Shown here piece after piece: positions 5,823 through 56,978 of a stretch of DNA of 64,000 nucleotides. The position numbers were made by a program, and so were the translations under genes. Each line of letters opens with the position of its first letter. Within the stretch, counting starts at the first letter, position 1. Under the pieces are notes generated by a model. That model did no database searches and was not told the origin of the DNA. It saw nothing but the letters and a program-made list of their open reading frames with translations. The stretch is from positions 3,968,001 to 4,032,000 of the forward strand of contig NZ_CP007035.1 in NCBI RefSeq assembly GCF_000243115.2. Reading direction: 5' to 3'. The stretch is from Niabella soli DSM 19437. GTDB lineage: Bacteria; Bacteroidota; Bacteroidia; Chitinophagales; Chitinophagaceae.

Positions 5823-6749
5823 ATGTCAGTAATAACAGTTGGAACGATGGCTTTTGACGCCATTGAAACGCCCTTTGGGAAAACGAACAAAATTGTAGGT
5901 GGCTCGGCACTATACGCGGCTTATGCAGCGAGCTACTTTGTAAAACCCGTTCAGCAGCTTTCCATTATTGGCTATGATTTTCCGGAAGAGGAATTGGGAT
6001 CGCTTGAGGAAAGAGGAGTGCAGTTGGAAGGGGTTGAAAAGGTGGCCGATAAAAAATCGTTCTTCTGGAGCGGGCGCTATCATGAGGACATGAATTCAAG
6101 AGATACCCTGGTTACCGATCTGAATGTGCTGGCCGATTTTGATCCGAAGGTGCCGGACAGCTACCAGGGCGCCGAATTCCTGATGCTGGGCAACCTGATG
6201 CCAAAAATACAGATCAGCGTTATTGAGCAATTGAAACAAAAGCCAAAACTGGTGGTGCTGGATACAATGAACTTTTGGATGGAAACCGCCCTGCCCGACC
6301 TGGAAGTGGTACTAAAAAAAGTGGATCTGCTGATGGTAAATGATTCTGAAGCCCGGCAGTTAACGCAGCAGCATTCGCTTATAAAAGCGGCCAAAAAGAT
6401 CCGGGAAATGGGCCCTAAGTATTTGATTATCAAAAAAGGAGAAAACGGCGCTTTGTTGTTTTATGAAGAAAAGGTCTTTTTTGCCCCGGCTTTTCCGCTC
6501 GAAGATGTATTTGACCCCACCGGCGCTGGCGATACTTTCGCCGGTGGTTTTATCGGCTATCTGGCTAAAACCAATGATATCAGTTTCCAGAACATGAAAA
6601 AGGCGATCATTGCGGGCTCTGCCCTGGCCAGCTTCTGCGTTGAAAAGTTTGGCAATACCAGGCTCAGGGAGCTTACAAAAGAGGAACTGAACGACCGGAT
6701 CCGGCTTTTTAAAGAATTGACCCATTTTGAAACAGAGCTTTCTCTGTAG
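5823..6749 (+). CDS. PfkB (ribokinase) family sugar/nucleoside kinase
   Basis: 308 residues with the ribokinase fold. The family signature DPTGAGDTFAGGF, carrying the catalytic Asp and anion hole, lies near residue 225. N-terminal VGGSALYAAYAASYF is the substrate-binding GG segment, and LMVNDSEARQL with YLIIKKGENGALL marks the ATP-binding half. Families with this outline phosphorylate sugars, nucleosides or sugar phosphates; the short lid loop suggests a monosaccharide or nucleoside. This is a common orphan kinase of Bacteroidota and its substrate is not known to me. It is monocistronic: own promoter upstream, strong terminator downstream. The TetR regulator is divergent. Confidence 0.88.
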   Translation: MSVITVGTMAFDAIETPFGKTNKIVGGSALYAAYAASYFVKPVQQLSIIGYDFPEEELGSLEERGVQLEGVEKVADKKSFFWSGRYHEDMNSRDTLVTDLNVLADFDPKVPDSYQGAEFLMLGNLMPKIQISVIEQLKQKPKLVVLDTMNFWMETALPDLEVVLKKVDLLMVNDSEARQLTQQHSLIKAAKKIREMGPKYLIIKKGENGALLFYEEKVFFAPAFPLEDVFDPTGAGDTFAGGFIGYLAKTNDISFQNMKKAIIAGSALASFCVEKFGNTRLRELTKEELNDRIRLFKELTHFETELSL

Positions 6750-6755
6750 CGTTTT

Positions 6756-6802
6756 GAATACCGGTGCGGTTTCCAAAACGGCACCGGTGTTCAGGTTTTT
6801 TT
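6756..6802 (+). terminator. Rho-independent terminator of the PfkB kinase gene
   Basis: A stem GAATACCGGTGC (6756-6767) with GCACCGGTGTTC (6781-6792), one wobble pair, is followed by AGG and seven T. The end of this T-run also supplies the -33 TTTG of the asd promoter. Confidence 0.85.
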
Positions 6803-6831
6803 GGAGAATAATTATTCTCTGTCTATTTTTG
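6800..6831 (+). promoter_or_regulatory. Consensus promoter of the asd leader
   Basis: TTTG at 6800-6803, a 20-base spacer, then TATTTTTG at 6824-6831. This is an exact match to the Bacteroidota housekeeping consensus TTTG-N19-21-TAnnTTTG. Transcription should begin near 6837-6839, about 10 bases before the leader ATG at 6849. Confidence 0.75.
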
Positions 6832-6848
6832 TTCTGATGGCAATTAAG

Positions 6849-6884
6849 ATGAAACATACAAAAACTACAAAAAAGTGTCCCTAG
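6849..6884 (+). CDS. asd leader peptide (Lys/Thr-rich attenuator peptide)
   Basis: An 11-codon frame encoding MKHTKTTKKCP then TAG. Four of the 11 residues are Lys and three are Thr, and the run from codon 4 to 9 is only Thr and Lys. These are end products made from aspartate semialdehyde, the product of the gene that follows. An in-frame ATG at 6837 would add MAIK (Ile and another Lys and Met, also aspartate-family amino acids), but that codon sits at the expected transcription start, so 6849 is preferred. The stop codon overlaps the first base of the antiterminator arm, the layout required for ribosome-position sensing. Confidence 0.75.
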   Translation: MKHTKTTKKCP

Positions 6885-6957
6885 TGGAAGGTCGTGGTGT
6901 TTGTGTGGTCAACATAAATTTTAACAGGCCTTCCGTAAATCCGGAAGGCTTTTTTTT
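6884..6957 (+). terminator. Transcription attenuator: antiterminator versus terminator before asd
   Basis: The terminator is GCCTTCCG 6928-6935 with CGGAAGGC 6942-6949, followed by eight T (6950-6957). The competing antiterminator pairs 6884-6893 with 6927-6936: six Watson-Crick pairs GGAAGG/CCTTCC plus three wobbles and one C-G. Both use the same CCTTCC arm, so they exclude each other. A ribosome stalled on the Lys/Thr codons (6858-6875) leaves 6884 onward free and favours antitermination. A ribosome reaching the stop codon covers this arm, so the terminator forms. Confidence 0.78.
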
Positions 6958-6980
6958 AACATAAAACGCGTAAAACAACA

Positions 6981-7988
6981 ATGAAAGTAGCCGTTGTGGG
7001 TGCCACAGGTTTGGTGGGCACCAAAATGTTGCAGGTTTTGGCAGAAAGAAATTTTCCTGTATCTGAATTAGTTCCCGTTGCTTCAGCAAAAAGTGTGGGT
7101 AAGGAAGTAGCATTTAAAGGCAAACAATATAAAGTCGTAAGTATGGAAGACGCCATTGCTGCCAAGCCGGATGTGGCGCTGTTTTCAGCAGGCGGCAGCA
7201 CTTCTGCCGAGTGGGCTCCGAAATTTGCAGCAGCCGGCATAACGGTTATTGACAACTCTTCCGCATGGCGGATGGACCCTAAAGTACCATTGGTGGTTCC
7301 GGAGATCAATGCTGATATATTGACCAGCAATGATAAAATAATTGCCAACCCCAATTGCTCTACTATTCAAATGGTGGTGGCCCTGGCGCCGCTGCATAAA
7401 GCCTATAATGCAAAACGCATTGTGGTTTCTACTTACCAGAGTGTTACCGGTACCGGCGTAAAGGCGGTGAGCCAGCTAAAAGGAGAACGGCAGCAGGAAG
7501 TGGCCGGCGCAACAGGGGATTACGAAATGGCGTATAAATATCCCATCGATTTGAATGTGATCCCGCAAATAGATGTGTTTGTGGACAACGGCTATACCAA
7601 GGAAGAGATGAAAATGGTTAATGAAACCAAAAAGATCATGCGCGATGATTCCATCCGGGTAACGGCAACCACCGTTCGTATACCGGTAATGGGCGGCCAC
7701 AGCGAAGCGGTAAATATCGAATTTGAAAATGAATTTGACCTTGCCGATGTGCGCAATTTACTGGAAACAGCCCCTGGGGTAGTAGTGGTAGATGACCTGG
7801 CCAGCCAACAGTACCCCATGCCTAAGGATGCGCATGAAAAGGATGAAGTGTTCGTGGGGCGTATCCGCCGGGACGAATCGCAACCCAAAACCCTCAATCT
7901 GTGGGTGGTGAGCGATAATTTACGTAAGGGTGCCGCAACGAACGCTGTACAGGTAGCGGAATACCTGGCAGCAAGCAATCTGATATAA
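6981..7988 (+). CDS. asd: Aspartate-semialdehyde dehydrogenase
   Basis: NADPH-dependent reduction of L-aspartyl-4-phosphate to aspartate semialdehyde, the branch-point precursor of lysine/diaminopimelate, threonine, isoleucine and methionine. 335 residues, normal length. The N-terminal nucleotide-binding loop is VGATGLVGTKML, the DNSSAWRMD segment follows, the catalytic cysteine lies in NPNCSTIQ near residue 128, and the histidine base is in RIPVMGGHSEAV near 240. The gene is alone behind its own promoter and an apparent Lys/Thr attenuator ending 23 bases before the ATG. That supports regulation by charged tRNA-Lys and tRNA-Thr. Downstream is an intricate palindrome and then uppS. Confidence 0.96.
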   Translation: MKVAVVGATGLVGTKMLQVLAERNFPVSELVPVASAKSVGKEVAFKGKQYKVVSMEDAIAAKPDVALFSAGGSTSAEWAPKFAAAGITVIDNSSAWRMDPKVPLVVPEINADILTSNDKIIANPNCSTIQMVVALAPLHKAYNAKRIVVSTYQSVTGTGVKAVSQLKGERQQEVAGATGDYEMAYKYPIDLNVIPQIDVFVDNGYTKEEMKMVNETKKIMRDDSIRVTATTVRIPVMGGHSEAVNIEFENEFDLADVRNLLETAPGVVVVDDLASQQYPMPKDAHEKDEVFVGRIRRDESQPKTLNLWVVSDNLRKGAATNAVQVAEYLAASNLI

Positions 7989-56863: not shown

Positions 56864-56870
56864 AAAAAAA

Positions 56871-56965
56871 GGCAGGCTACTCACATCGCGCCGCTACAAC
56901 CACCTATCCTTGCTGTCTTCCGACCCTGGGGAGATTCGGTAGGAGCTGGCCGTATAAGACCTGCC
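56871..56965 (-). ncRNA. ffs: Signal recognition particle 4.5S RNA
   Basis: On the minus strand the 95-base transcript begins GGCAGG and ends CCTGCC, which close the terminal helix. The apical domain IV reads CCCAGGGTCGGAAGACAGCA then AGGATAGGTGG, matching the universal SRP core (GGTC.GGAAG..AGCA with the symmetric internal loop that binds the Ffh M domain). A T-run (TTTTTTTATTTTTTT, minus strand) follows directly as terminator, and a perfect -7 box TATATTTG lies 5 bases before the 5' end. ffh itself is at 61398. Ends are set by helix pairing and could shift by a few bases. Confidence 0.92.
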
Positions 56966-56970
56966 GGCGG

Positions 56971-56978
56971 CAAATATA
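56971..56978 (-). promoter_or_regulatory. -7 box TATATTTG of ffs
   Basis: Exact TAnnTTTG followed by CCGCC and then the GGCAGG 5' end of the SRP RNA. The RNA end fixes the distance from box to start at about 6 bases in this organism. Confidence 0.7.

Follow-up and report, generated by a model that had tools for sequence, protein, structure and literature searches.

The gene asd, which is predicted to encode aspartate-semialdehyde dehydrogenase, is preceded in Niabella soli DSM 19437 by a compact RNA element that is very probably a ribosome-mediated transcription attenuator controlling this gene. We analysed the element within a 64,000-nucleotide stretch of contig NZ_CP007035.1 (forward-strand positions 3,968,001 to 4,032,000), which we refer to as the window and number from its first letter. 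Ribosome-mediated attenuation is a classical mechanism, and its presence before asd is strongly supported in silico: a leader reading frame, an antiterminator arm and a terminator are conserved jointly, the arm covaries with the terminator, and, under an assumed ribosome footprint, the positions of a stalled and of a terminating ribosome fit the choice between the two folds.

Architecture of the element upstream of asd

All parts of the element lie on the plus strand, as does asd itself (6981–7988), the gene presumed to be controlled, which was identified by matches above cut-off to NCBIfam TIGR01296 (444.9 bits; cut-off 324.2) and NF011456. Direct reading of the sequence placed a -33-like promoter element, TTTG, at 6800–6803, 20 nt 5' of a -7 box of the form TAnnTTTG (TATTTTTG, 6824–6831) that was also counted over the leaders of relatives. 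When the spacing of the Flavobacterium psychrophilum -7 box (PMC9723704) is applied to 6824–6831, the transcript is predicted to start at 6836. The leader open reading frame (ORF), MAIKMKHTKTTKKCP, spans 6837–6884, ends in TAG at 6882–6884, and contains an internal ATG at 6849 from which the codons read ATG AAA CAT ACA AAA ACT ACA AAA AAG TGT CCC TAG. The antiterminator arm (GTGGAAGGTC, 6884–6893) starts on the final base of this stop codon and can pair at 10 of 10 positions, G-U included, with GGCCTTCCGT at 6927–6936. The latter doubles as the 5' arm of the terminator (6926–6935), whose 3' arm (6942–6951) runs into a U tract, so that eight T at 6950–6957 close the stem. A preliminary description of this DNA had named the promoter TTTG-N20-TATTTTTG, the Lys/Thr frame, an arm beginning at the leader stop codon and the eight-T terminator, and all of them were found at the coordinates it had given.

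The minimum-energy fold combined the terminator with a helix that was missing from the preliminary description. This helix, P1, pairs leader codons (5' strand, 6855–6868, within the leader ORF) with 6894–6907 (3' strand, which we call region 2), encloses the arm, and covaries among relatives. In folds of the antiterminator, a linker downstream of region 2 (ACATAAAT, 6912–6919) can also pair with 6899–6906 inside the antiterminator loop, forming a helix that we call P2. Folding of 6840–6960 gave a z of -2.97, and 1 of 200 shuffles was equally good.

Conservation of the element

The gene asd was present in 17 of 17 Niabella genomes, with frame, arm and terminator upstream in every one. Automatic screening of 184 asd loci, drawn from various Bacteroidia families, called the module at 126, of which eight were discarded by eye as false (L049, L078, L080, L083, L087, L097, L182 and L183) and one (L018) as a duplicate of L014. 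Removal of sequences at least 90% alike reduced the remaining 117 loci to 103. This set is not purely Chitinophagaceae, as 24 members came from a scan of named genomes and at least one (L025, on the same contig as L338) belongs to another family. Across these upstream regions frame, arm and terminator are kept together and arm and terminator covary, the outcome that the preliminary description had asked for as a check of attenuation.

A covariance model built from 23 hand-chosen asd leaders matched 81 of the 90 asd loci sampled from Chitinophagaceae, a count in which those 23 match by construction and opposite-strand matches of L105 and L101 are not included. The 90 loci comprised the 30 best asd matches and 60 picked by hand from the remaining 112 genomes in which asd was matched. 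The model recovered 99 of 100 previously accepted loci. In broader samples, where the search filters lose weak matches, it matched 70 of 298 genomes at the order level (E up to 0.01) and 17 of 295 at the class level (E up to 0.002). Thirteen of the class-level genomes lie outside Chitinophagaceae: seven matches precede asd (L338, L339, L341, L342, L344, L345 and L347; L341 and L342 have the same module sequence), one precedes hisG (L340), one trpE (L343) and one asnB (L348), and the other three (L346, L349 and L350) had no convincing leader on inspection. The genome of N. soli itself yielded nine matches at E up to 10, one of which is the asd element; the next two, which were opened (E 0.14 and 0.18), precede unrelated genes with no leader seen. 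Comparison of the asd region with a plasmid collection, which is ill suited to this region, gave no match.

Leader start, promoter spacing and reading frame

The preliminary description had proposed an 11-codon leader, MKHTKTTKKCP, beginning at ATG 6849. Its frame and stop codon stand, and its start codon probably does not. The frame is open from an upstream ATG at 6837, and since 12 of 17 Niabella genomes lack an ATG at the place of 6849 while 17 of 17 have an in-frame ATG further upstream, the leader probably starts at 6837 and comprises 15 codons. About 1 nt would then separate the start codon from the predicted 5' end of the transcript at 6836.

We scanned 100 of the 103 leaders for a TAnnTTTG-like box before the first ATG, three being omitted because their start is too close to the end of the sequence. 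At least five of six consensus positions were present in 96 of 100 leaders and all six in 60, compared to 13% and 1.4%, respectively, of upstream control windows. The gap between box and ATG was 7 to 9 nt in 73 of the 96 leaders with a box (range 4 to 14; 5 in the window). Because the F. psychrophilum -7 box covers -12 to -5 (PMC9723704), the predicted 5' untranslated region (UTR) equals this gap minus 4, that is, about 1 nt in the window and 0 to 10 nt elsewhere, with the spacing borrowed from another genus. In F. psychrophilum the median 5' UTR is 24 bp and leaderless mRNAs account for 5.5% (890 genes; PMC9723704), and a near-leaderless start would therefore be uncommon.

The promoter also contains a perfect 16-bp palindrome, GAGAATAATTATTCTC, at 6804–6819 between the -33 and -7 boxes. 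It could be an operator; against such a role, it is broken in three Niabella relatives with the same promoter form (L002, L008 and L009).

Codon usage within the leaders follows the proposed frame. Of the 103 leaders, 95, 94 and 86 have Lys at the three Lys columns, where both AAA and AAG occur; a purine is the third base of 275 of the 277 AAN codons at these columns. A purine follows AA in 85% of instances in frame, versus 66% and 40% in the other two frames.

Covariation of the arm, terminator and helix P1

P1 and the helix formed by the arm were first read from a single sequence and then tested separately. Over all 117 loci, the window included, the best duplex between leader and terminator arm had a mean energy of -16.3 kcal/mol versus -8.1 (sd 2.7) for shuffled leaders, and it lay below the 5th percentile of the shuffles at 100 loci. 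We then compared the pairing of each segment with its own mate and with swapped mates in 101 leaders, L103 and L129 having been excluded from this and from the geometry count below for want of a recognisable arm. The arm paired better with its own terminator arm (-16.6 versus -14.1 swapped; z -11.1), as did the leader with its own region 2 in P1 (-13.5 versus -10.8; z -11.7). Control pairings of leader with terminator arm (z 0.2) and of arm with region 2 (z -0.4) showed no such preference. Segments defined by an alignment (102 rows, L113 excluded) gave z -10.7 for arm and terminator arm and z -14.7 for P1, with controls at 0.5 (leader and terminator arm) and 0.6 (leader and linker). Control pairings this close to zero speak against a general artefact in the swap tests. 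For P2, the pairing of region 2 with the ACATAAA linker, the signal was weak (z -4.8 in the alignment-based test and z -1.2 with the first segmentation).

Counts of compensatory change gave a similar result. In a MAFFT alignment the arm helix had 52 double-changed cells versus 29.8 in shuffles, and P1 had 85 versus 47.9; for both helices, 0 of 500 shuffles reached as high a count. An alignment fitted to the model gave 272 versus 70 for P1 and terminator together, such an alignment being biased towards structure. In the terminator, 9 of 10 pairs had double changes among 100 aligned matches, one of which (L105) is on the wrong strand.

Ribosome position and the proposed choice between folds

For the geometry we assumed that the ribosome shields 12 nt past the first base of its A site. 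With this footprint, a ribosome stalled at the last Lys codon would cover no more than 2 nt of the arm, and so leave it free, in 96 of 101 leaders; one standing at the stop codon would cover the arm in 101 of 101. Relative to the first base of the arm, the stop codon begins either 1 to 6 nt upstream or 6 to 15 nt downstream, and never in between. In the window we also folded the partial RNA that ends short of the terminator 3' arm. There the antiterminator was present for an A site at any leader codon through the last Lys (6873), was partly disrupted at Cys (6876), and was absent at Pro (6879) and at the stop codon. Antiterminator and terminator are mutually exclusive, as the former uses the 5' strand of the latter.

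We propose that transcription begins at about 6836 and that a ribosome initiates at or beside the 5' end of the RNA. When charged Lys-tRNA, and probably Thr-tRNA too, is ample, the ribosome would reach the stop codon and cover the arm at 6884–6893, the terminator at 6926–6951 would form, and asd would be left untranscribed. When charged Lys-tRNA, or less surely Thr-tRNA, is scarce, the ribosome would stall within KHTKTTKK, blocking P1 and leaving the arm free to capture the emerging 5' strand of the terminator, with read-through into asd as the outcome; pairing of region 2 with the linker may aid this capture. P1 is probably the counterpart of a 1:2 hairpin, which would either pause RNA polymerase until the ribosome arrives or favour termination when there is no translation, roles between which the energies cannot decide.

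Several observations weigh against this model. The full-length equilibrium fold was the terminator for A sites at 6837–6840 and at 6861–6873, where the final five Lys/Thr codons lie, and the antiterminator won for A sites at 6843–6858 only; read-through at the last Lys and Thr codons would therefore have to be kinetic. The antiterminator was also predicted without a ribosome, before the terminator 3' arm exists. As the arm sits within the loop of P1, P1 and the antiterminator do not exclude each other through a common strand and would cross as a pseudoknot. The position of the transcript start is borrowed from a different genus, and 9 of the 90 sampled Chitinophagaceae asd loci had no match to the covariance model. 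On the side of covariation, the swap tests and pair counts ignore phylogeny, and the arm paired more weakly with its own linker than with swapped linkers (z 3.5 in the set of 102). The number of pairs with any double change was reached by 36 (arm helix) and 199 (P1) of 500 shuffles, and the number of further pair types was matched by 44 and 130, respectively. Each of the four outer arm-helix pairs is lost in about 31 to 53 of 102 sequences, and RNAalifold predicted the terminator alone from the 102-sequence alignment.

The arrangement also departs from the four-region layout of the trp type, in that the 3' strand of P1 (6894–6907) adjoins the arm (6884–6893) instead of being it. We do not take the trp layout as defining for all attenuators, and regard the arrangement of P1 and arm as a topological variant. 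The preliminary description had claimed that the spacing of stall codons, stop codon and competing arms fits the classical model base by base; the geometry of stall and stop fits under the assumed footprint, and the set of helices has to be amended, as P1 had been omitted.

Amino acids probably read by the asd leader

Every one of the 103 leaders contains at least three Lys codons, and the two Lys columns before the stop region hold Lys in 94 and 86 of 103, so that sensing of Lys by the asd leader is well supported at the sequence level; a Lys-rich copy of the module before dapA in six relatives, described below, adds to this support. Thr occurs in 96 of 103 leaders, with at least two in 80. 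Immediately ahead of the final Lys pair, 56 of the 103 asd leaders have Thr, 21 Ile, 10 Asn and 9 Ser; these counts lean towards the four residues because the codon columns were anchored by a pattern that favours Lys, Thr and any of Thr/Ile/Ser/Asn at the respective positions. The earlier proposal that one leader senses Lys and Thr jointly is well supported for Lys and suggestive for Thr. Joint sensing is plausible, as is a role for Thr as an added signal within Chitinophagaceae.

The main alternative is that the attenuator senses Lys alone, its Thr codons being maintained through helix P1 (ACATACAAA) and an A-rich composition and playing no part in sensing. We hold this to be quite possible, if a little short of probable. 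Seven of the 103 leaders have no Thr at all, and one Thr column (column -4) falls within P1. In 6 of 17 Niabella leaders no Thr precedes the final Lys pair (L010–L014, KHTKIKKHP; L017, KHTKMKRV). Six distinct asd leaders from three other families consist of 30% Lys and 9% Met and contain one Thr in total. The same Lys-rich module moreover stands before dapA, a gene of the Lys branch, in the genomes of six relatives, three of them from one genus (four among 30 retrieved dapA loci, a set with three unreadable members, together with L227 and L213), and these dapA leaders still carry about 1.5 Thr each versus about 2.2 in asd leaders.

The column directly before the final Lys pair (column -1) argues for Thr as a signal. 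It lies mostly outside P1, uses all four Thr codons, and carries Thr or Ile in 77 of the 103 leaders of asd versus 0 of 6 dapA leaders, where Val or Ser occupies it. Fisher p was 0.0004 for Thr or Ile and 0.011 for Thr alone, with Thr in 0 of 6 dapA leaders and in 5 of 6 asd leaders of the same genomes; this contrast is weaker than it appears, as three of the six genomes are of one genus and the column-finding pattern rewards Thr. We also count against Lys alone that the N. soli thrA gene carries a separate Thr/Ile leader.

A similar layout before other genes

The asd-built model also found leaders of other codon content. Among 18 order-level matches opened elsewhere, four preceded dapA, eight hisG, two asd, one pheA and one an aminotransferase-aspartokinase pair, and two (L228 and L239) had no convincing leader; a nineteenth (L213) preceded dapA. 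Covariation was computed for asd alone, and the layout before the other genes was read by eye.

An example of the hisG leaders found in this way is MKINLHIHHHTSYLAG. In N. soli itself the hisG leader is MKNLIHTHHHFTDLPK, and His leaders of the form HIHHH or HTHHH precede hisG in each of the 12 Niabella genomes read (L322–L333), usually with an arm resembling GTAAGCC and a terminator GGCTTAC. Separately, hisG matches with internal stops occur in three Niabella genomes (L334, L336 and L337; nine stops in genome G007), and these are perhaps decayed genes or assembly errors.

A Lys-rich leader (MMNNKPYKKDKKRIPQR, L237) with an arm AGGTAAGCC and a terminator GGGCTTACC precedes aminotransferase-like and aspartokinase genes. 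The trpE leader is MKITMNNTWWWKNLRQTS (L343), upstream of a gene that is open over 493 codons and scores 437.8 bits against TIGR00564 (cut-off 517.7). In another Bacteroidia family, a leader with a run of Asn codons (MKTQTHNNNRFFALASR, L348), an arm and a terminator precede asnB, whose match is above cut-off, and we regard this locus as a candidate Asn attenuator. In the Chitinophagaceae locus L236 a leader combining Phe, Tyr and Trp codons (MITQTTFGFFGFYYFWYQK) stands before pheA-like (202.5 bits; cut-off 219), aminotransferase-like and tyrA-like genes, a second branch point with the codons of several amino acids.

The leader of the N. soli thrA gene, encoding aspartokinase/homoserine dehydrogenase (MQHNFQNIQVSSCFVNGTTTTIITTP, L303), is Thr/Ile-coded and of a different RNA design. 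In 16 of 18 thrA loci read by eye (all except L311 and L315) the Thr/Ile run ends at a stop codon within a small hairpin such as ACAACCCGTTAAGGGTTGT, often followed by ATATTACC and with no clear U-tract terminator. Upstream of dapA and of the sole homoserine dehydrogenase gene of N. soli no such leader was seen.

The best evidence that these leaders sense aminoacyl-tRNA supply is that their codon content tracks the product of the downstream gene. We tentatively suggest a common Bacteroidia attenuator chassis, in which a near-leaderless leader has codons pairing downstream and enclosing the arm, and which would be recoded for Lys, Lys and Thr, His, Phe and Tyr, Trp, or Asn, with one leader reading two end products at branch points (asd and the pheA-aminotransferase-tyrA-like genes); we rate this proposal slightly below an even chance.

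Three further alternatives were considered. The terminated leader RNA, of about 120 nt, might also act in trans as a small RNA. The precedent is Sinorhizobium meliloti rnTrpL, itself leaderless (PMC7298713, PMC10117765), and a discrete short transcript is expected here; since the cis switch already accounts for the conserved parts, we consider such an additional role unlikely. It is very unlikely that a KHTKxTKK nascent peptide arrests the ribosome upon ligand binding in place of codon starvation: the peptide is strongly basic and conserved over much of the family, but divergent leaders such as MNFIITNTKKIKKHISNGEGV and MLKIYKYTTKHVLIKEG retain Lys and not the sequence, and a similar layout occurs with HHHH, FFGFYYFWY, WWW or NNN before other genes. 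Least probable of all is a constitutive terminator that ends the upstream gene or lowers asd, with the leader frame a by-product of A-rich sequence, for although the eight-T hairpin could block read-through from the sugar-kinase-like gene at 5823–6749 (all of whose NCBIfam matches are below cut-off), the covariation of arm and P1, the spacing of promoter and start, the in-frame Lys codons and the stop/arm geometry would be unexpected without a translated leader.

Comparison with known systems

At the gathering thresholds of Rfam nothing matched at the place of the element in the window, and at E up to 10 the interval 6750–7000 gave 18 sub-threshold matches. The best of these was Phe_leader (RF01859, 26.8 bits; gathering 55), and Thr_leader (RF00506) was rejected at 14 bits, likewise against a threshold of 55. 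The lysine riboswitch and the T-box were also rejected, with no match at gathering in the window and none at E up to 10 in 6750–7000. The lysine riboswitch (L box) regulates genes of the lysine pathway through termination; the asd element differs from it in having a translated leader, no aptamer and no Rfam match of that family. As the element lies under every Rfam gathering threshold, our covariance model may be worth curating. Elsewhere in the window, Rfam identified a Bacteroidales small signal recognition particle RNA (RF04183, 90.3 bits) at 56866–56973 on the minus strand.

Attenuators for His, Thr, Trp, Phe and branched-chain amino acids, some of them in Bacteroidetes, were reportedly described by Vitreschak and colleagues in 2004. 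In the full-text literature searched, outside which most subscription journals lie, we recognised no asd, Lys-coded or Asn-coded attenuator in Bacteroidota. If the proposed chassis is real, Lys and Asn would, as far as we know, be new among the amino acids read by ribosome-mediated attenuation. The asd element proposes a concrete control for the aspartate pathway in Chitinophagaceae. Together, asd, dapA, hisG, pheA, trpE and asnB form a natural codon-swap series on a similar RNA layout, which makes codon-specific sensing, gating by several amino acids and leaderless initiation testable in Bacteroidota.

Leader-peptide attenuation has been proposed in the same phylum for F. psychrophilum (PMC9723704) and Bacteroides thetaiotaomicron (PMC7366714). 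The F. psychrophilum proposal shares the mechanism class and a position before amino-acid biosynthesis operons, and both differ in that the sections available contain no asd or Lys case and no structure. A further parallel is SEP5 of S. meliloti, a small translated ORF located in the 5' UTR of a gene termed 'aspartate dehydrogenase' (PMC10117765). With six Thr and three Lys codons, it likewise combines both kinds in a proposed leader peptide tied to the aspartate pathway. It belongs to another phylum, its role as a leader is a suggestion, and no RNA structure is described in the part of that paper available. Leaderless leader peptides are represented by S. meliloti trpL (PMC7298713) and Corynebacterium glutamicum ilvBNC (PMC11857589), in which, as predicted for asd, the leader peptide starts at or near the 5' end of the transcript; these carry Trp and branched-chain codons and occur in other phyla.

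Finally, the asd element resembles the E. coli trp-, his- and thr-type attenuators in that codons for the product lie in the leader, a terminating ribosome would cover the arm, the antiterminator recruits the 5' strand of a U-tract terminator, and a further helix involves the leader. It differs from them in its Lys codons, in its predicted near-leaderless leader, and in an arm that lies in the loop of the 1:2-like helix and is not one of its strands.

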